From the NCBI GenBank assembly GCA_937146725.1, contig CAKZRU010000016.1, positions 1 to 64,000 on the forward strand: a DNA stretch of 64,000 bases. Reading direction: 5' to 3'. Below, piece by piece: positions 49,597 through 62,645 of this stretch. Origin of the DNA: an uncultured Myxococcales bacterium (GTDB taxonomy: Bacteria > Myxococcota_A > Bradymonadia > UBA7976 > VGTA01). The notes under the pieces are model-generated. The model was not told where the DNA came from and did no database searches. It worked only from the letters and a program-made list of their open reading frames with translations. A program made the translations under genes and the position numbers. Every line of letters begins with the position of its first letter. The first letter of the stretch is position 1.

Positions 49597-49833
49597 TTTG
49601 ATTTCCAGACTATATTTGAGTGGCGTTAAAGATTGAGAACTACTTTGGGATGAGTTTTTTACTTAGTCAAGCCTTGCTATGTTTGCAAGTAATCTTCAAG
49701 GCCAATCACCATTTTCTAAATTTTTGATCGAGCTTATTGCTTGGATATATTGCTTATTCCTCTTGGATCATCTAGTTTAGACTCGTTTTTAATTTATATA
49801 GTTTAGCCCTAAAATCTGATGCAAAGGGATAAT

Positions 49834-52800
49834 ATGTCCACTCCTCACCTTGGCGAGTTTTTTGCAGCGCTACTTGGATGCGCCATTGAACGTTGTGAAC
49901 GTGGTGATCCGGCTTCGTTACGCTATGAAATCGGTAGATTAGCTTATCTAACCTTTGGTTATTCAGAACGAGACTGGCTAGACCAAGCCTTATTTGAGTC
50001 TGACCTAAATGATGAAACACAAGGCGTACTTTTAGCACAGTTAGACCGTGAGTTAAGTGCATCAAGTCCTGCTTGGCTTGATCGAATTCAACTACGAGCT
50101 TTGATTTTAGGAGTGATCCGCTTAGTGAGAGCTCAGTGGTTTACACGAGAAGAATTACTACGTGAAGTTTGTCACATCTTTAGTCTGTCAGCCGACCAAT
50201 TAGCAACCACAGATTTAAGTAATGTTGCGACCTTAGCTCCTCATCTGTGGATTATGCTTAATAGTCGAGCTCAATTAAGAAGACGTTCTCCCAAAGTGAG
50301 TACAGAGTGGGCACCGATTCCCAAAGAATATACGGCCTTATCTGTGATGGTTTACCAAGAAGACTATTGGCTACTCTTAGTTAGACGCGCCGGCTTAACC
50401 GCTTATTTGGAGTTGACTAGAGCCAGTGATCACATTCGGGCTCAAGAACTAAAAACAAGTTTAGCCGAAAATGTCGGTGGTTGGCTAGAGATCACTCGCT
50501 GTGGTCAAGAAGATGAATGGGTTTGGGCTGAGCATCCAGCACATCTTGATTTATCCTTGTTAACGCGTATGGAACAAGCGCTTACGCCCGAACAAGCAGT
50601 ATTGGTATGCTTACCGATCTTACGTGCATTGAGTGCTTTACATCGAACTCATAGAGTTTGTGGAGCATTAACCCCAAGCTCAATTTTGATCGATAGTGGT
50701 TGCCAAGCAATGCTTGGTAGTCGTCTCGCTTGGTACCCACATATATTTGAATCCCAAATCGAAAGTCTGAGGACTAAGGATTTAACCTATTGGAGCCCAG
50801 AACGTTTTTCAGATTTCGCTCTACCAACCCCACAGTCAGACATGTGGGCCTTTGGTCTTATTTTATATCAACTATTATGCGGCGACCTTCCGTGGCGGCA
50901 ACAGCAAAAGGTGCCTGAGTTAATTAAATATATTAAGCAATTTGATCATACTGAGGCCCTAAAAAGAGTTCCGGAATCCTTACGTTCGTTCTTAGCCCGT
51001 TGCTTGACACCTGACCTTGATCATCGCTGGTCACATGCAACTCAAGCCTTGGAAGCTCTGTCGGATGTGGCAGAGCTAACCAGCCCTCTGCTTAAAGGGC
51101 AGCGCTTAAGTGAACAGTGGACTGTACTTATGGAAGTTGATGGTCCACAACGCTTTATCGAAGAAACTGCAATTATCCCAACGTATGAGCCAGAGGAAGA
51201 TTTAGCTCGCTTTGTGCAAGTTCGTATCGATCTAGATGATTTAGCTTCTCCACATATTGATGCACTCACTCTAAAGCCCTTATTTCCCAAACTTAAAAGC
51301 TTGCATGAGCGTTGGTGGTCAAATCATGCACTTATGCAAGAGACTCAAAATCAACAATCTTCATCACTTGAGTCCTTTAGACTGAGCTTAAGTAATATTG
51401 CGCCAGAGTTTTTATTTGAGCAACTTACCTTACTGAGTCAACAAAAAGAGTCTCTCGAGTTACGTTTCCAAGATCGTGTGAAGCGCTTAGTTAGAGAACG
51501 AGAGATGATTCGTGAAGAAGTGAGGCAACATACCAAAGAGACCTTGCTTAGTTTATGGCAAGAGTTAGGTTTACCCGAGGATCTGATCCCTAATTTATCT
51601 CTTGAGGCAGCAGCTAACCGTGGTGCTAAACGCACTGCTTTAGCAAGCATACCGCGTGCTCAAGCCAATCCCAATGCCTTACTGACCCCGTCAAGCCCAG
51701 AATTAAACTCTGACGATAAGAATGCACCTAAAGAACAAGCTAATGTCCAAGTGCAAGAGGTCAACAAGCAAGAAAAGTTGATGCAGACTGAGTCAAAGCG
51801 AAACTTAAACAAGACAGCAATAGAGTTTGCGATTGCTGAAGAGCAGGTAGAACAGTCTAAGTTCATGCAAGAACTAAGTGAGGGTGAAAGCGGTCTACAA
51901 GGTGAATATAACTCAGTAGACCGTATAGCAAAAATGAGTTTAAGCCCCCAAGAGTTGAGCGTAGCCGAAGCCGCGCTTCGAGAAGAGATTTTCTCTACTC
52001 CTCCTATGGAAAGGCTTGAGAAACTCAGTGAATTAGGAGCCTTAAAAAGGGAAATCGAACTGTCACAGCCTATGCTCGCCATAAGCCCTCCGCCTCCTGA
52101 GTGGAGTCAGCCCCCTCAATGGGATGCCCCTCCGGCTGTGGTTTCTATCGCTCCGCAAGAAGAACAAAACTTGGCTGATTTAATCGACATTGGTGCAATA
52201 GAGGCTGGCGACCAGTTACAAGAGCCCAACAACTTACAAGAGCTCAACGACTTGCAAGAATTCCAAAACTCTCAAGAAGCCCAAAACTTGCAAAACTCAC
52301 CAAATAGAGAACTAAAACTATCTGACTTGCCCGGTCCTGCTGAACTACATCATAACGCTAATTCTCAACCAATCGAATTAGATTTGTCAGATAGTGATGT
52401 AAATGCCTTTGATAATATTGAAGAAGCAGAAGTTGATAACTTAATTGATGAATTAGAATTAGAGTTAGCAAACTCAATATCTCCTGATGAGAAGCTAGAT
52501 AATGCACCAATAGATGAGATCAGTATGGGGACGGAAATGCTAGATCCTGTTTCTTCAACTTGGGAACCTCTAATCATTGATGACTTTGATGAATATGAGG
52601 TTCTTGATGAGTATGAAATTCTTGATGAACTCACGTCTCAAACGCTTTCGGATATGCTTGCACCCGAGCAGAAAGATCATCAGATTGCTGATGAAGACTT
52701 AAACCAAGTCCAAGTGACTCCTCCACCAATTCCCCAACAAGCCACACAAGTTATGAATGACTTACAGCATGAGCTTGTAACGAGTGAAATTGTGACGAGT

Positions 52801-53085
52801 GAGACTATAACGAGTGAAATTGTGACGAGTGAGACCTTACATGATGAAATTAGCTCAGCAATTACTCTTTTGGGCGCTGAGCCAACTACAGAATTAACGA
52901 CTGAGATCACGGTTGACACAGAAAATATTTCTGACCTACAGCAAGAAGCGCAAAGTAGCGAAGGAACTCAAACTAATGCAGAAGCTCAATCTACAGAAGC
53001 TCAATCTGCAGAAGCTCAATCTGCAGAAGCTCAAACTAATGCAGAAGCTCAATCTACAGAAGCTCAATCTGAAGGAGATGCATAA
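49834..53085 (+). CDS. Pseudokinase-like protein with coiled coil and acidic repeat tail (paralog 1)
   Basis: Kinase C-lobe features DLTYWSPERFSDFALPTPQSDMWAFGLILYQLLCGDLPW, but the HRD-loop equivalent reads HRVCGALTPSSILID and there is no DFG. Start at ATG 49834 after AAAGGGA. Confidence 0.78.
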   Translation: MSTPHLGEFFAALLGCAIERCERGDPASLRYEIGRLAYLTFGYSERDWLDQALFESDLNDETQGVLLAQLDRELSASSPAWLDRIQLRALILGVIRLVRAQWFTREELLREVCHIFSLSADQLATTDLSNVATLAPHLWIMLNSRAQLRRRSPKVSTEWAPIPKEYTALSVMVYQEDYWLLLVRRAGLTAYLELTRASDHIRAQELKTSLAENVGGWLEITRCGQEDEWVWAEHPAHLDLSLLTRMEQALTPEQAVLVCLPILRALSALHRTHRVCGALTPSSILIDSGCQAMLGSRLAWYPHIFESQIESLRTKDLTYWSPERFSDFALPTPQSDMWAFGLILYQLLCGDLPWRQQQKVPELIKYIKQFDHTEALKRVPESLRSFLARCLTPDLDHRWSHATQALEALSDVAELTSPLLKGQRLSEQWTVLMEVDGPQRFIEETAIIPTYEPEEDLARFVQVRIDLDDLASPHIDALTLKPLFPKLKSLHERWWSNHALMQETQNQQSSSLESFRLSLSNIAPEFLFEQLTLLSQQKESLELRFQDRVKRLVREREMIREEVRQHTKETLLSLWQELGLPEDLIPNLSLEAAANRGAKRTALASIPRAQANPNALLTPSSPELNSDDKNAPKEQANVQVQEVNKQEKLMQTESKRNLNKTAIEFAIAEEQVEQSKFMQELSEGESGLQGEYNSVDRIAKMSLSPQELSVAEAALREEIFSTPPMERLEKLSELGALKREIELSQPMLAISPPPPEWSQPPQWDAPPAVVSIAPQEEQNLADLIDIGAIEAGDQLQEPNNLQELNDLQEFQNSQEAQNLQNSPNRELKLSDLPGPAELHHNANSQPIELDLSDSDVNAFDNIEEAEVDNLIDELELELANSISPDEKLDNAPIDEISMGTEMLDPVSSTWEPLIIDDFDEYEVLDEYEILDELTSQTLSDMLAPEQKDHQIADEDLNQVQVTPPPIPQQATQVMNDLQHELVTSEIVTSETITSEIVTSETLHDEISSAITLLGAEPTTELTTEITVDTENISDLQQEAQSSEGTQTNAEAQSTEAQSAEAQSAEAQTNAEAQSTEAQSEGDA
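52971..53071 (+). repeat. 15-bp tandem repeats (GCAGAAGCTCAATCT) encoding EAQSx
   Basis: Read directly; encodes NAEAQSTEAQSAEAQSAEAQTNAEAQSTEAQSE. Confidence 0.9.
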
Positions 53086-56000
53086 TGACTGAGAATCTTT
53101 TGTCTATCGCATCCATAGATCAGTCTTCGGCTATCCCCTATCAACTTCAAAACACACTCTTCAAGATTGGGCGCTTTGTACTAGAACAAGGAACACATCA
53201 GGACCATAGTAGCTTTGCACTGTCTTTTATCAGTCGCTATTATCAAGCCTTAAACTTGTGGCCTTTAGAGTTTACTGAGCGTCTCTTTGAGCATGCCAAA
53301 GAATTAAATGCGCAAGATCGAGTGGCTTTAGGACAAACGCTTTCTAATCAGCTCAGACCTTGGCTTCCTCCACATATTGACGAATTAAAGATTGCTGATT
53401 TTTTTAGAAGCGTCTGTCTAGTGTTAGACCAATGTGACGGTAATCTTTTGACCTTGCTTTCGGCTTTTAATGAAGAAATCCTAAGTCCAATTAAAACAAG
53501 GCTGAATCCTAGAAAACTTATTGAAGTTGAAGAACGAATGGGGACGGCATTATATTTGGCGATTCTTGAGCTTACAGAAGAAGCCCCCAGCCATTTTATC
53601 CCTAAAAGTCGATGGCCACAGATTTCGGAGTATACTCTTTTACAAAGTTTAGCACCCATCAACGATGTTTTTCCTTTTGTCGCTCTAAGAAATAGTGATC
53701 ATTTACGTTGCACTTTATATATCAGCGATCAACCGATTCACTTGTTACCTAATATTGAACTCAGTGAATGGCCAATTCATTGTGTACAGCCCCTAGAAAG
53801 TGGTCGTAGTGAAGTTAAGCAGAGTCAAACGACTCAACAAGAGTCTCGCGAGCTTTATTGGACTAGTCTTCCGGCAACCGGCCCCATTAGACTCACAGAG
53901 CTTTTACCATTTACTGATATTTACACAGCGCTCTACATAGGTGAACAGCTTCTTGAAACCTTAGGCGCTTTACATCAACTTGGTATTTCTTTTAGAAGCC
54001 TTAGCCCAAATGAAGTAGTGGTCGATCATCGATTCCAACTTCAATTATTGCCTTTTTTGGAATATCAAACACGCGATCGAGCATGGGCTGGAGATAGTAC
54101 GCTTAGAGTATCAGATTTCAATTCCATTTATATAAGTCCAGAGCAACGCCTTGGCCAAAAAGGTGATTTACGATCTGACCTGTGGTCATTTGGGGCAATC
54201 TTTTATGAACTTGTGATGAAAACGCCTTTGATTCAGAACTCATCATTAGTTGGATTGTCTGAGCTCGATTCTACCAGTGGTATTATGCCCTTGGGTGATG
54301 ATTTTACCAACAATCTAAAATTGATTGTTAAACGCTGTTTACATCCCAATCCAGACCATCGTTGGTCAGATGCACAACGAGTTTTAGAAAATTATCGACC
54401 TATCGCCAATGAAGTTCGGCAGACTTTAAAGAGTCGCGGTAGAAGCGCACAGTGGACAAGAGTGATTGGTGAAGGTGTACTTAGGTCATTTATCGATCAA
54501 AATATTCATGCGCCACCTCATCCGGTAAATCCTTCATTCTTCTCCTTCTTAGAAAATCAAGAAATTCCATTGAGTACCGCCGAAGACCCAAGTGCCTTAC
54601 TCACAACAATCTTTGCTCAAGAAGAAGCCTTAAATGAAGATATCGGAAAGTGGAGCATTTTATTAGATGAAGCCGAGCAGGCGCAAAGAGCCTTAATCTT
54701 AAGAATTAAAGATGAAGTTCCTGCAATCACCTATGAGCACTTAGAAGACCTCGTTGAAGAAAAGGTCTTAATCAAAGAAGCCTTGTTACAAGCTGAAAGT
54801 AAAATTGCCTTCTTTGAGCGACGGCGTCCCAAGCTTTTTGCTTTAGCATTGGAACGCTTTATTGAAGACTCTGAACTCAACCTTGATCTCCAAGAGCTTC
54901 TTAACTTGGATTGGTCCACAGTCGATTCATTGCCTGATGATGGAAACGATCAGGAGGGGGGGCCGATTGACTTAAATGAAGATCAGTCTGATTTTGATGA
55001 TTTAGATCAAGATTTTGCCGATGAAGCGAATGAACAAGAACTGCTACTTGATGAACTTGAAGCGCAAAGTGTAAAGATCTCTGAAGACAGTTTACAGATT
55101 GATGAGTTGGAAGCTCTTGATGATTTAGAGCAACCCGATGAAGATGAGAAGCTTACGCGGCAACAAGCTGAGTCGGTATCACAGAGCCTGCAAGAGATAG
55201 AGCCACAAGAGATAGAACCACAAGAGATAGAACCACTAGAAATTGCTTCTCATCCTCACAAAAGTGATGAGAATGATTTACTTGAAGCTCTAATCGATTC
55301 TGTCACAGCTGCAGACTCGCTCTCAACCAAAGAAGTTGTCATCGAAGAAGCTGGCCATGAACCTTCTGATCAAGATGTTATAGGGGTTGAAGCCAATGAG
55401 CAAGACTCACTGCCTTCTCAAGACTCACTGCCTTCTCAAGAGCGAATCACGATTGAAGTCGCTGAAGTTAGTGCAGAGTTGATTGAGAATAGTGTGGTCA
55501 ATGAGAGTGATGCTTCTGGCTTGCCTTTTGATTTAAATCAAGGTTCTGATATCATTGATGATTTGAAGCAAGGTGTACTATCCGATCATGATTTGAACTC
55601 AGAATTAGTCTCTAGTCCTCATCATGAAGATCAGAATCTTTTGAATGAAAGCTTGGCCGAAGCTTTAGAAGATGAGTTTCAAGAGCCAAGTCCATTAGAA
55701 GAGCCAAGTCCATTAGAGGAACCAAGTCCATTAGAAGAACCAAGTCCATTAGAAATTGCAAATCCGGATGTTGCGACAATAAAAGCAACGATCGACAGTG
55801 CGGCGATTAAAGGCATAGAGGATTTTGCTGACCTTAGCATTTTAGAGAGAGATCAATTACCCGAAGAAGAAGCGCTTACTGATGACTTTGACTTTGGTGA
55901 CTTGACCGGTATTGAAGACTTACCGGAAAATGAACAGCAAGATTCATTGTTTGGTAGATTGGGCATAAATGACCCCTTACGACAAATGGACTCTTATGCA

Positions 56001-56708
56001 TTGAACAAAGATCATGACCTTGTTGTAGACCATAATCTAGAACAGAGATCAGATGACTTGGATGTGTCTGAGTCTGATTTTATGGAAGTCTCCATAGACA
56101 CGCAGAGCATAGAATATAAAGAGGAGGATGCACTGTTTACCTCAGCTCCTCTTCCACTATATTCTGATGACCTCAGCTTAGATATGAGCGTTGAAGAGTC
56201 TGAGCCAGAGCCAGCATTGCATACAGAATCAGTGAATCTGCTTGAGAATGAGCAACTTACTGATGAAGATAAAAGTGATGGTGTTGATAGTGTTCTCGAG
56301 CCGGAATCAACTCTAGAACCCTCAATGGTGATTTCAAAGGAATCTATTGCAGCTGCCTCTGTGGAGCTTCCCAATGAAGAGATGCTCCAATCACTCAGCC
56401 AACTCATCGAGTTAGAGGCAGAGGGTGCGAGAAAGCAGGTGATTATGACACCACTTCCACAGGTTTTATCTATGACCACAGATGAGCGCAGGCAACTTGT
56501 CGATTTATATGAGCGTTATGTAAAACTCAAAAAGGTGTATAATGATGCGCCAGATGAAAACCTAAACTTCGAAGACTTTAGAAAAGAAATCGATTTGGCA
56601 CGAGAGATGGCCGTTGAAGTTCATGGCTGGGAAGCTGTGAGATTTACGGTGAAGGTGAAGGATGGCAAAGTGGTACTTAAGGCCAAAAAAGCGCTGGTTT
56701 CCACTTAA
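53085..56708 (+). CDS. Pseudokinase-like protein with acidic repeat tail and MXAN_5187-like C-terminus (paralog 2)
   Basis: VSDFNSIYISPEQRLGQKGDLRSDLWSFGAIFYELVM, with degenerate catalytic loop SFRSLSPNEVVVD; C-terminal LYERYVKLKKVYNDAPDENLNFEDFRKEIDLAREMAVEVHGWEAVRFTVKVKDGKVVLKAKK. TAATG overlap with upstream gene. Confidence 0.78.
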   Translation: MTENLLSIASIDQSSAIPYQLQNTLFKIGRFVLEQGTHQDHSSFALSFISRYYQALNLWPLEFTERLFEHAKELNAQDRVALGQTLSNQLRPWLPPHIDELKIADFFRSVCLVLDQCDGNLLTLLSAFNEEILSPIKTRLNPRKLIEVEERMGTALYLAILELTEEAPSHFIPKSRWPQISEYTLLQSLAPINDVFPFVALRNSDHLRCTLYISDQPIHLLPNIELSEWPIHCVQPLESGRSEVKQSQTTQQESRELYWTSLPATGPIRLTELLPFTDIYTALYIGEQLLETLGALHQLGISFRSLSPNEVVVDHRFQLQLLPFLEYQTRDRAWAGDSTLRVSDFNSIYISPEQRLGQKGDLRSDLWSFGAIFYELVMKTPLIQNSSLVGLSELDSTSGIMPLGDDFTNNLKLIVKRCLHPNPDHRWSDAQRVLENYRPIANEVRQTLKSRGRSAQWTRVIGEGVLRSFIDQNIHAPPHPVNPSFFSFLENQEIPLSTAEDPSALLTTIFAQEEALNEDIGKWSILLDEAEQAQRALILRIKDEVPAITYEHLEDLVEEKVLIKEALLQAESKIAFFERRRPKLFALALERFIEDSELNLDLQELLNLDWSTVDSLPDDGNDQEGGPIDLNEDQSDFDDLDQDFADEANEQELLLDELEAQSVKISEDSLQIDELEALDDLEQPDEDEKLTRQQAESVSQSLQEIEPQEIEPQEIEPLEIASHPHKSDENDLLEALIDSVTAADSLSTKEVVIEEAGHEPSDQDVIGVEANEQDSLPSQDSLPSQERITIEVAEVSAELIENSVVNESDASGLPFDLNQGSDIIDDLKQGVLSDHDLNSELVSSPHHEDQNLLNESLAEALEDEFQEPSPLEEPSPLEEPSPLEEPSPLEIANPDVATIKATIDSAAIKGIEDFADLSILERDQLPEEEALTDDFDFGDLTGIEDLPENEQQDSLFGRLGINDPLRQMDSYALNKDHDLVVDHNLEQRSDDLDVSESDFMEVSIDTQSIEYKEEDALFTSAPLPLYSDDLSLDMSVEESEPEPALHTESVNLLENEQLTDEDKSDGVDSVLEPESTLEPSMVISKESIAAASVELPNEEMLQSLSQLIELEAEGARKQVIMTPLPQVLSMTTDERRQLVDLYERYVKLKKVYNDAPDENLNFEDFRKEIDLAREMAVEVHGWEAVRFTVKVKDGKVVLKAKKALVST
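55683..55754 (+). repeat. Four 18-bp tandem units (GAGCCAAGTCCATTAGAA) encoding EPSPLE
   Basis: Read directly from sequence. Confidence 0.9.
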
Positions 56709-56840: not shown

Positions 56841-58445
56841 ATGCCATCTGATTACGGTTATCCAATTCCTCCTTCAGGTCAACGACCTCAAATGTATAAT
56901 CGGGTCGCCTTAGAAGAACCTAAGGAACTGATTAGAGCTGAAGAAGATCAATATCTGAAGCAATCTGGTATTGAACAGATCAAAGCCAAGGTTGTCACTC
57001 AAAGCCGAGAGATTCTTGATAATCGCTTCAGCGAAAGTCAAGTTGATCGCTTTAGAGGAAATACTGAAGGACGAAATCTCAAGGAAATTCCACCAAGTCT
57101 TCCAATTTCTCGTTTACCTAACCAAGTTCAAGCGTTTAATCCATTGACTGCTCGCTCATCGAACATTAGTACCTTCAGTATGGCAGAATCGGCAGCAGCA
57201 GGAATGACTCAGGTTCGACCTGATGTGAATACCGGTTCTGCTGTTAGACCATCGGCAGATGAGAATCTTGCTCAAATGAAAGAGAGTATAGAAGCGCGTC
57301 AAGAAATTAGAGAGCAGCAACTAGAGCAGCTTCCGTCGATCAATGGAAGCGGTGAAATTGCCGCTAGATTTGATGCGATTGAAGAACAAATTCGACAGCG
57401 TGCTCTCGATGAGTTTACTGATCTTAGGCCAGGTGGTCCAGAGTCAGAACGGGTCTCACTTGAGAATGCCCAAGTTAAGCAAGATTATCGTGAAGACTTT
57501 ATAGAAGATCAAAAACGTGATTTAAATCTTGAAAATGCTGTTTTTGAGCAACGACAATTTGAGCAGGTACAGCAAGATGAACAAGTTGTTGATCGTCAGC
57601 AAGAGGTGCAGCGCAATGAACTGATTGCAAATGAAGCAGTGGCGCAAGAGCGTCAAGTCACTCAGCAAAATGATGATGAGCGTTCAGCTGAAGCACCGAT
57701 CGCTAAAGAGCCAGGGGCACCAACAAATACTCGCGGCGAACCATTAAACTCAGAGGAACAACGCGAAGTACAACGGTTGGAACGTAGGGATTTAGAGGTT
57801 AAAAATCACGAGCAAGCTCATGCTCGAGCAGGCGGTTCTAATATTCGAGGCGGGATTGAGCTTTCATATACCACCGGTCCTGATGGACGACGTTATGCGA
57901 CCGATGGTGAAGTTAATATAGACCTCAGTTCAGAACGATCTCCACAAGCAACTGTCAATAAAATGCGACAAGTTCAAAGAGCTGCTTTAGCGCCAGCAAA
58001 TCCATCGGGAGCTGATCGAGCAGTCGCTTCTTTGGCCGCTCGTCGTGAACTAGAAGCTCAAGCTGAAATACAAGAACTGCAAGCTCGTGACCAAGAGATG
58101 AGAGCCAGAGAGCAAATGGCTGGAGAGCCAGCCAAACAAGAGGCATCTAATGAGCAAGCCGGTAAAGTTGAAGTGAGAGAAAATGTAGACCACATTGCTG
58201 GTGCTCAATCTGTGATTCCAGACCCAAGCTTTACGCCTAGAAGCTCAGGGATTGAACAACAGTCTTTGGAAGCATATGAAGCAAGTTATCCAATGTCAGC
58301 ACCTAAAGATACCTCTAGACCGGTTTCGGCACCAAGTAAGAAGTTTGCTATGGGTGAATTAAATGCACCGCCAGCTTCACCAAGGTCAGAAACACCATCA
58401 GCTCAATATGATGAAGCGATTGAAAAGGCTCTTGAAAGTTATTAA
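56841..58445 (+). CDS. SprA-related family protein (putative HExxH metalloprotease)
   Basis: NSEEQREVQRLERRDLEVKNHEQAHARAGGSNIRGGIELSYTTGPDGRRYATDGEVNIDLSSERSPQATVNKMRQVQRAALAPANPSGADRAVASLA. Confidence 0.85.
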   Translation: MPSDYGYPIPPSGQRPQMYNRVALEEPKELIRAEEDQYLKQSGIEQIKAKVVTQSREILDNRFSESQVDRFRGNTEGRNLKEIPPSLPISRLPNQVQAFNPLTARSSNISTFSMAESAAAGMTQVRPDVNTGSAVRPSADENLAQMKESIEARQEIREQQLEQLPSINGSGEIAARFDAIEEQIRQRALDEFTDLRPGGPESERVSLENAQVKQDYREDFIEDQKRDLNLENAVFEQRQFEQVQQDEQVVDRQQEVQRNELIANEAVAQERQVTQQNDDERSAEAPIAKEPGAPTNTRGEPLNSEEQREVQRLERRDLEVKNHEQAHARAGGSNIRGGIELSYTTGPDGRRYATDGEVNIDLSSERSPQATVNKMRQVQRAALAPANPSGADRAVASLAARRELEAQAEIQELQARDQEMRAREQMAGEPAKQEASNEQAGKVEVRENVDHIAGAQSVIPDPSFTPRSSGIEQQSLEAYEASYPMSAPKDTSRPVSAPSKKFAMGELNAPPASPRSETPSAQYDEAIEKALESY

Positions 58446-60359: not shown

Positions 60360-62645
60360 ATGAAGATGAGCCAGATAAGCAAAAGCCTAACCAAGTTATA
60401 TGTAAACGAAAAAGGCCAATGTCAGTGTGGGGCAGTATTTAATAGCCGCACATTATGGTATATTGGGTGTCAACAAGATGTAGATCCGACTCAAATTCAG
60501 TATGAACTTGAGCAAAGTAACCTACATACTTGTACTCAATGTGGACAGCAAACTCGTTTTTTAGTGCCAGTGCTTATTGATCATCTTCATCAGCATAAAG
60601 CTAGTATTTTTGTGCCACAGCCTTTGGCCTACAAAGCCTTGAGTATTCAGTCCGAGTTGCTCTCATACTTATCGCATGAAGCAACAGTTCAAGCACAGCA
60701 ATATTATTCTCAAGCTGAAATTGTAATTGTACAACAGGCCTTAGCAACTCCTGTGACTCATGCCGAAATTGATCAAAAAAGTACACATTCGGCCTTAGGT
60801 CATACAAAGAATGATCTAGACAAAGAGATTGGAAAAACCAAAGAAGCACCAGTGATTGCGCCTATCCCTCAAGCTTTACAGAACTCGGTTTTAGAGTCCG
60901 CAGAGTTAGCCCAAGAACTCGCTGAATCACCTACTCAAGTCATTAAACCAAAATCTAAGCATTCTGTTTCTAAGGTAGAGCAAGAAATCGCCAAAACAAG
61001 CCCTCTCGATGCTTTAATTGATACAGCATTAGAAGATCATACGGTGATTAGTGATCTAGAAAAAGTTGATTTCAATACTCAACCCACCGATGTTAAAGAG
61101 CGTAAAGAGACGATCCCTAAAAAGCAATCGACTCGTTCTTTACCGCCATTGCAAGCAAAGCCAAGTGATGAGCTAAATAAGCAAGACAATGAGCAAAATC
61201 AAAAAACGATGATTTCGCTTGTTGAGCCCGAAGAAATGCTCAATGTAAACCATAAAGAGCCAACCAAACGTTTGTATGCACAAAATATGAAGCGCTTTGA
61301 TGAGCAAATGGCCAACCAGCACAATAAATATATTAATGTGATTGATGGTCAAGTCGAGCTTGCGATTAAGATCGATGAGCGCAGAGTAGATCGCTGGATT
61401 AACGAAGATCTCGATATTCGGATCCAATTGCATCGTGAGCTCCAATTAGGTGCGCCCTGCCTGACGATTTTTACGACCAAAGATGGCAATGTACAAGATG
61501 AGCTTTATTGGCCTATTCATATCGATGGCTCAATGGGACCCAAAGCGCTTCGTAGTTTGCGTAAAAACTTTAAGGTAGAGTTAGTGCTGTTCAAAGCTGA
61601 TGGCCAATTTTATGGCCAACGAATGATTGAAGCACCTCTGGAAGAAAACTGTGCCTATATTATCAACTATGTGAAGCAAATGGGCATGACGAGTAGTATT
61701 GCTGCCAAAGCAAGAGCCATTATCGCAGCAGAAGATTTTGATAGAGAGGGTCAAATGAAGCACCCCTTTAATCAAAATAGTTTTTCCGATATTGAAAATG
61801 CAAAAGATGCTCAGCTTGCTGTGAGTATTTGGTCATATTGGAGTACGGTTAGACAGCGTGATTACTTGATCTTTGTTAAGTCCTTTCCAATTCCATGGCT
61901 CAGACGTTTACAGCATCGAGTTCTAAAGTCGGCGATTGAGTTTGGGATTCACATGCCACTGAACTTGCAGAGTCAAGCGGTTGCTTTAGGCTTAGCAAAA
62001 AGCGATGTAGAACTATTACAAAAGTCAATGACTCACTTTGTAGAAGTTAATTTAAACTTCCGTGCTTCCGGTTTAGACTCAATCGAAACATGGGAAAATT
62101 GGGATGCCTTGCTTGCTCAACTTTCACAAATGGGGATTGATGCGGATGAAGAAGTTGAGCAACTTGCTTTTCAGGCTATGCAAAAGGCCGGCGTTGACTT
62201 AGAGTTTGAAGATGAAGCTTTTGGAGAAGAGGCACTCACCAACTCCGAAGCGTTGCCTCACCCTGTTTCCGAGCAGATAGATGGCAGTGATTTTGATTCT
62301 CTTGATGATATAAGTGAAATCCATGAGGTCAGTGAGTTAGAGGCAAGTGATGAGCAGGATGTTCCTCCTCCGGTTGATCCCGAACTAGACTCCGACTTCC
62401 CTGATGATGAAGAAGCTGAGTTGATCATGGAAGACTTTATTGAGGAAGAATATCTGACCGATATTGGCGGAGATGCCTTTTTACTCATTGATGATAATGA
62501 CATCATCGAAGAGGATATTATTGACCCAAAAACAGCTGAAATCGGTGATCAATTAGCTCAAACTGGTAGCTTTGAGATTAAAACCCAAATGTTTGTTAGC
62601 CAAAACGATGAAGCTGACTCGGATCATTCATCGAGTGAAGGATAA
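60360..62645 (+). CDS. Acidic protein with N-terminal CpXC-like zinc-binding domain
   Basis: CQCGAVFNSRTLWYIGCQQDVDPTQIQYELEQSNLHTCTQCGQQTRFLVPVLIDHL; strongly acidic C-terminus. Confidence 0.7.
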   Translation: MKMSQISKSLTKLYVNEKGQCQCGAVFNSRTLWYIGCQQDVDPTQIQYELEQSNLHTCTQCGQQTRFLVPVLIDHLHQHKASIFVPQPLAYKALSIQSELLSYLSHEATVQAQQYYSQAEIVIVQQALATPVTHAEIDQKSTHSALGHTKNDLDKEIGKTKEAPVIAPIPQALQNSVLESAELAQELAESPTQVIKPKSKHSVSKVEQEIAKTSPLDALIDTALEDHTVISDLEKVDFNTQPTDVKERKETIPKKQSTRSLPPLQAKPSDELNKQDNEQNQKTMISLVEPEEMLNVNHKEPTKRLYAQNMKRFDEQMANQHNKYINVIDGQVELAIKIDERRVDRWINEDLDIRIQLHRELQLGAPCLTIFTTKDGNVQDELYWPIHIDGSMGPKALRSLRKNFKVELVLFKADGQFYGQRMIEAPLEENCAYIINYVKQMGMTSSIAAKARAIIAAEDFDREGQMKHPFNQNSFSDIENAKDAQLAVSIWSYWSTVRQRDYLIFVKSFPIPWLRRLQHRVLKSAIEFGIHMPLNLQSQAVALGLAKSDVELLQKSMTHFVEVNLNFRASGLDSIETWENWDALLAQLSQMGIDADEEVEQLAFQAMQKAGVDLEFEDEAFGEEALTNSEALPHPVSEQIDGSDFDSLDDISEIHEVSELEASDEQDVPPPVDPELDSDFPDDEEAELIMEDFIEEEYLTDIGGDAFLLIDDNDIIEEDIIDPKTAEIGDQLAQTGSFEIKTQMFVSQNDEADSDHSSSEG

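Follow-up and report, generated by a model that had tools for sequence, protein, structure and literature searches.

The window, i.e. the whole stretch of 64,000 nucleotides that was analysed, contains two genes that adjoin head to tail on the forward strand, here called PK1 (positions 49,834–53,085, 1083 aa) and PK2 (53,085–56,708, 1207 aa), with the coordinates that an initial annotation of this DNA had given. The ATG at 49,834 was preferred as the start of PK1 over a second in-frame ATG at 49,819, as it has the better-placed AAAGGGAT and agrees with the starts of both orthologues. The TAA stop codon of PK1 (53,083–53,085) shares one base with the ATG start codon of PK2 at 53,085, and AAGGAG is found directly 5' of this start, within PK1. 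Scanning for promoters and terminators gave values near those of shuffled controls.

Both genes are present, always adjacent and overlapping, in all three genomes that have either one, which are the three genomes of family f1: the host genome (G000), a genome of the same genus (G001) and one of another genus (G002). The overlap is of the one-base or ATGA stop/start type in each, and a single G002 contig carries both the end of PK1 and the beginning of PK2. Separate occurrence of the two genes, which the initial annotation had said would speak against its proposal, was seen in none of them. Profiles of the N-terminal regions of PK1 and PK2 gave no match in 54 other genomes of the class, and when 85,462 species genomes were scanned by a pattern-based method for the PK1 profile, the only true orthologues were those in G001 and G002, the remaining hits being kinase-domain matches. 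The pair is carried by three genomes only, two of which are congeneric. The gene order symporter, DUF1015, PK1, PK2, SprA-related, glnS, CpXC-like is identical in G000 and G001, and G002 has a DUF1015 gene roughly 4 kb upstream of its PK1. The SprA-related protein (PF12118, window positions 56,841–58,445) contains an HEQAH motif and is encoded 133 bases 3' of PK2, a position kept in G001; its gene and PK2 may belong to one operon. The CpXC-like protein (60,360–62,645), encoded 12 bases after glnS and 52% identical in G001, has a long acidic C-terminal tail with a composition similar to that of the PK1 and PK2 tails.

Membership of PK1 and PK2 in the protein kinase superfamily is supported by Foldseek, which led to kinases for both, and by the Pfam Pkinase profile (PF00069), which matched only the C-lobe, at residues 238–407 of PK1 (E 1.2e-13, 51.5 bits) and 285–434 of PK2 (E 6.8e-10, 39.2 bits), above the gathering cut-off of 31.7 bits. 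AlphaFold2 reproduced the common layout described earlier for the two proteins, consisting of a helical N-terminus, a degenerate kinase domain, a pair of long helices and an acidic tail, and neither protein has an evident membrane segment. In PK1, an N-terminal helical region (residues 1–150, 49,834–50,283; helices modelled at 6–148 with low to moderate confidence) is followed by a degenerate N-lobe (163–235, 50,320–50,538), a C-lobe (236–415, 50,539–51,078) and a post-kinase helical region (416–585, 51,079–51,588) with long helices at 487–522 and 528–577. The corresponding parts of PK2 are an N-terminal helical region (18–165, 53,136–53,579; helical at 19–162, low confidence), a C-lobe (263–445, 53,871–54,419) and a post-kinase helical region (446–606, 54,420–54,902) with long helices at 502–547 and 550–595. 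Both C-lobes were delimited by PF00069, profile alignment to active kinases and Foldseek, and all these features are encoded on the forward strand. Family and fold searches of Pfam, NCBIfam and the PDB gave no match above chance for the N-terminal helical domains. The initial annotation had spoken of a kinase-like C-lobe, which is what Pfam sees, but the AlphaFold2 model of PK1 also has a whole, degenerate small lobe of five strands and a C-helix, including strands at 167–175, 178–185 and 188–196 and a helix at 200–212. The AlphaFold2 model of PK2 is poor (mean pLDDT 56), and its N-lobe is not to be relied on.

The two proteins are related over the C-lobe, and hhalign (99%) carries the match on into the post-kinase helices, with 25% identity over 272 columns, although the post-kinase regions compared alone gave only P 0.02. 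No homology was detected between the N-terminal helical domains of PK1 and PK2. The paralogy proposed earlier is thus upheld over the C-lobe and is weak but colinear past it, and does not extend detectably to the N-termini.

Only PK2 ends in an MXAN_5187-like domain, as had been noted: the NF041621 (MXAN_5187_C) profile matched residues 1136–1201 (56,490–56,687, forward strand; E 5.9e-10, 39.4 bits against a cut-off of 30), and the same profile scan found no such domain in PK1. PK2 shares this 70-residue domain with MXAN_5187-type proteins (NF041620/NF041621), but is not a member of the full-length MXAN_5187 family, whose model NF041620 scored 16.3 bits against a cut-off of 200 and covered the C-terminal 46 residues only. 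The domain is present in 32 of 38 relatives, and those of its bearers that were examined are either sensor-like membrane proteins or short helical proteins of the cytosol; PK2 and its G001 orthologue are the sole bearers of a kinase domain among them, and in the relatives examined the domain never occurs on a kinase outside the PK2 family. Short cytosolic MXAN_5187_C proteins occur in other families of the class (G023:C24, G034:C29, G026:C195 and G020:C1; loci L078, L079, L081 and L090), and this short family has a conserved helical N-terminal domain, NTAQKFRLR..VQRF....W.R..RQIEEGTY.RD. A second MXAN_5187_C protein of the host (G000:C45 34,600–38,439; L055 6601–10,440), of 1279 aa and with an N-terminal hydrophobic segment, is encoded two genes from an S-adenosylmethionine synthetase-like gene.

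For assessment of the catalytic residues, PK1, PK2 and their orthologues were aligned with a profile built from 24 active kinases of this and related genomes, and also among themselves. The active-kinase profile aligned little or none of either N-lobe. In PK1, CGA stands at the HRD position (50,659–50,667, forward strand; CGS and CGC in the orthologues), so that the catalytic aspartate is gone in all three genomes, and GSR stands at the DFG position (50,716–50,724, forward strand; GRR and GAR in the orthologues). The catalytic-loop asparagine of PK1 is replaced by serine or alanine, and in the AlphaFold2 model the third strand (beta3), LTAYLELTR, is without lysine and a tight beta1-beta2 hairpin stands where the glycine-rich loop is expected. 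In PK2, the HRD position (53,991–53,999, forward strand) reads FRS, the DFG position (54,051–54,059, forward strand) reads PFL (PYM and PYP in the orthologues, lost in all three), and the catalytic-loop asparagine is replaced by glutamate or arginine. The catalytic-loop strings quoted in the initial annotation were exact, as was its statement that no DFG is visible; its claim that the catalytic aspartate is lost in both proteins holds for this genome and for PK1 in all three, but is not a family trait of PK2, which keeps the residue in G001 (FGD) and G002 (HLD). As the HRD aspartate remains in two of three genomes, the inactivity of PK2 rests on the missing lysine, asparagine and DFG aspartate, all of which are lost in the six orthologues from the three genomes. 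Neither the beta3 lysine nor the glycine-rich loop of competent Ser/Thr kinases could be aligned in any of the six, and the complete K/D/D set that would have spoken for activity was not recovered in any. In both proteins a kinase fold is combined with motif losses kept across orthologues in three genomes, which is the general mark of a bacterial pseudokinase. Judged by their sequences, PK1 and PK2 are almost certainly pseudokinases. The host genome has 81 Pkinase matches, with at least seven further degenerate kinases among the low-scoring ones, indicating that pseudokinases are common in this genome. Seven long host proteins (913–1136 aa) other than PK1 and PK2 have kinase domains with a degraded HRD and/or DFG, located at C112 98,818–99,462, C92 25,101–25,841, C125 29,198–29,809 and 37,879–38,223, C155 760–1440, C177 1391–1846 and C182 35,275–35,856 (loci L059–L064), and several of them seem to end in a sulfatase-modifying-factor-type domain.

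The regional distribution of identity, compared for one species pair (G000/G001) with two active orthologous kinase pairs as controls, is the strongest evidence, independent of the motifs, that the pair is retained for a role other than phosphotransfer. An active kinase on contig C17 was left out as a control because it has no orthologue in G001. In the active controls, conservation is highest in the regions for ATP and substrate binding (80 and 91% in the N-lobe, 100 and 96% in the activation segment), whereas in PK1 and PK2 these are the least conserved structured parts, with 52% identity in both N-lobes and 30% (PK1) and 26% (PK2) in the activation segment. The flanking helices are more constrained, at 88% (N-terminal) and 89% (post-kinase) in PK1, on a par with the glutaminyl-tRNA synthetase encoded nearby (81%), and at 64 and 75% in PK2. 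A shift of constraint from catalysis to the flanking helices fits the expectation for a non-catalytic scaffold, and thereby backs the initial annotation in this point, although scaffolding itself is what we infer.

The acidic, repeat-rich tails are about 480–590 residues long. That of PK1 (residues 601–1083, 51,634–53,082, forward strand) has 21% D+E, 4% K+R and a net charge of −82; that of PK2 (616–1130, 54,930–56,474, forward strand) was recognised by composition and DNA repeats, and residues 616–1207, the MXAN_5187 domain included, have 27% D+E, 6% K+R and a net charge of −125. Both tails contain lineage-specific DNA tandem repeats and are mostly hard to align among the orthologues, but short islands persist. 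In PK1 these are FSTPP.ERLEKLSELGA.KREIELSQPM and VTPPPIP, shared by G000 and G001, and in PK2 an island IEDFADLSILERDQLP...FDFGDLTGIEDLP (55,815–55,925, forward strand) is recognisable in all three orthologues, with the consensus DF.DLS.L.R followed by F..LTG(I/L)E. A degenerate DNA search of G000 and G001 found LTGIEDLP in PK2 only. A natural reading of the islands is as putative docking sites.

Our preferred reading is that PK1 and PK2 are a co-expressed cytosolic pair of Ser/Thr pseudokinases which probably act as non-catalytic scaffolds. An alternative that we regard as unlikely is that they are allosteric partners switching an active kinase on or off, for example the G000:C5 kinase. In its favour, the best matches of PK2 outside its family are the kinases G000:C5 (E 3.7e-23, 29% identity over 256–506), G006:C42 (E 7e-26 over 65–516) and G006:C191, which have a helical N-terminus, a kinase domain and a helical region in the same order; the similarity to G000:C5 and G006:C42 is better than to other kinases and extends beyond the kinase domain. 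Unlike PK2, these kinases keep all catalytic residues (ALK, HRDLKPDN and DFG in G000:C5), and where PK1 and PK2 have an acidic tail they end in a transmembrane helix and a sulfatase-modifying-factor-like domain, which was recognised by eye. A common origin of PK2 and the sulfatase-modifying-factor-domain kinases is plausible. Against the allosteric alternative, comparison of the post-kinase regions alone between the pair and these kinases was weak (P 0.004–0.04), though colinear, a tree of active and degenerate kinase relatives, with unresolved deep branches and long branches, does not join the pair with C5-type kinases, and nothing in the genome links C5 to PK1 and PK2.

Kinase-fold enzymes with other chemistries exist, such as SelO (AMPylation) and SidJ (glutamylation), and PK1 and PK2 could similarly bind nucleotide and perform non-canonical chemistry, which we consider improbable. 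It is likelier for PK2 than for PK1, because the HRD aspartate persists in the PK2 relatives of G001 and G002, together with an arginine at the asparagine position, and there is a precedent in some bacterial pseudokinase families that are without the lysine and yet modelled with ATP (PMC12599244). Against it, a conserved lysine and DFG aspartate are missing, no other structured part is as poorly conserved as the N-lobe and the activation segment, and in the present genome PK2 has lost the aspartate too. That the genes are decaying kinases without function is very unlikely: many catalytic residues are missing and recent tandem repeats fill the tails, but in two species the frames of 1083–1265 codons are intact and indels preserve the reading frame, the helical parts are 64–89% identical and the gene order is retained. 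A part in anti-phage defence, for instance in a MADS system, is hardly credible, since the hits of the PADLOC Mad6 and PD-T4-6 kinase models, which fall on the C-lobe, are confined to the kinase domain, and the flanking DUF1015, SprA-related and glutaminyl-tRNA synthetase genes are stable within the genus; identity with the MADS kinase Mad6 was rejected, as NF047741 gave 67.9 bits, far under its curated cut-off of 460, and the neighbours are unrelated.

Under the preferred scaffold reading, PK1 and PK2 probably work together as protein-binding scaffolds. Through their conserved helices they would contact proteins at a fixed interface, in the simplest case each other, and the overlap of the genes would serve their joint production. 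The tails, long, acidic and presumably disordered, would serve as flexible arms, on which the short conserved islands dock partners, and the MXAN_5187 domain of PK2 may tie the complex to a partner common to other MXAN_5187-type proteins of these bacteria. The heteromeric complex and the functional division suggested by the initial annotation are hypotheses. More tentatively, and with considerable doubt, the two dead kinases might be an obligate, lineage-specific heteromeric scaffold that uses its acidic arms and MXAN_5187 domain to assemble a signalling or cell-surface machine so far undescribed in these bacteria. The role of most bacterial pseudokinases is not known, and a co-conserved overlapping pair in which constraint is clearly lost on catalysis but retained on the flanking helices is a good test of whether bacteria, like eukaryotes, make scaffolds from paired dead kinases. 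PK2 furthermore connects the uncharacterised MXAN_5187 C-terminal domain with a kinase-fold protein.

Bacterial pseudokinases are an established but little studied kind of protein, and its Ser/Thr families include ActPs1-3, GLW, CP1, DYD and DLHK (PMC12599244). Like PK1 and PK2, these have a bilobal kinase fold in which VAIK, HRD and/or DFG is degraded, and for a few of the families a scaffold role has been proposed or shown (PMC12599244). Several are membrane-bound, whereas PK1 and PK2 have no evident membrane segment, and in the sections of that review used here no family is described that has an MXAN_5187 domain, tails of acidic repeats or overlapping genes in tandem. Compared with the family descriptions in PMC12599244, Pfam and NCBIfam searches found none of the partner domains of DLHK, GLW and CP1 (helicase or DNA2; COG3899) in PK1 or PK2, and their catalytic loops do not have the GLW that replaces HRD in the GLW family. 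In MviN (ActPs3) and EssB/YukC a pseudokinase domain serves protein recruitment or dimerisation; these are, however, parts of membrane proteins in known pathways, whereas PK1 and PK2 are giant and assigned to no known pathway. The pair and its domain make-up look like a new architecture within the known bacterial pseudokinases.
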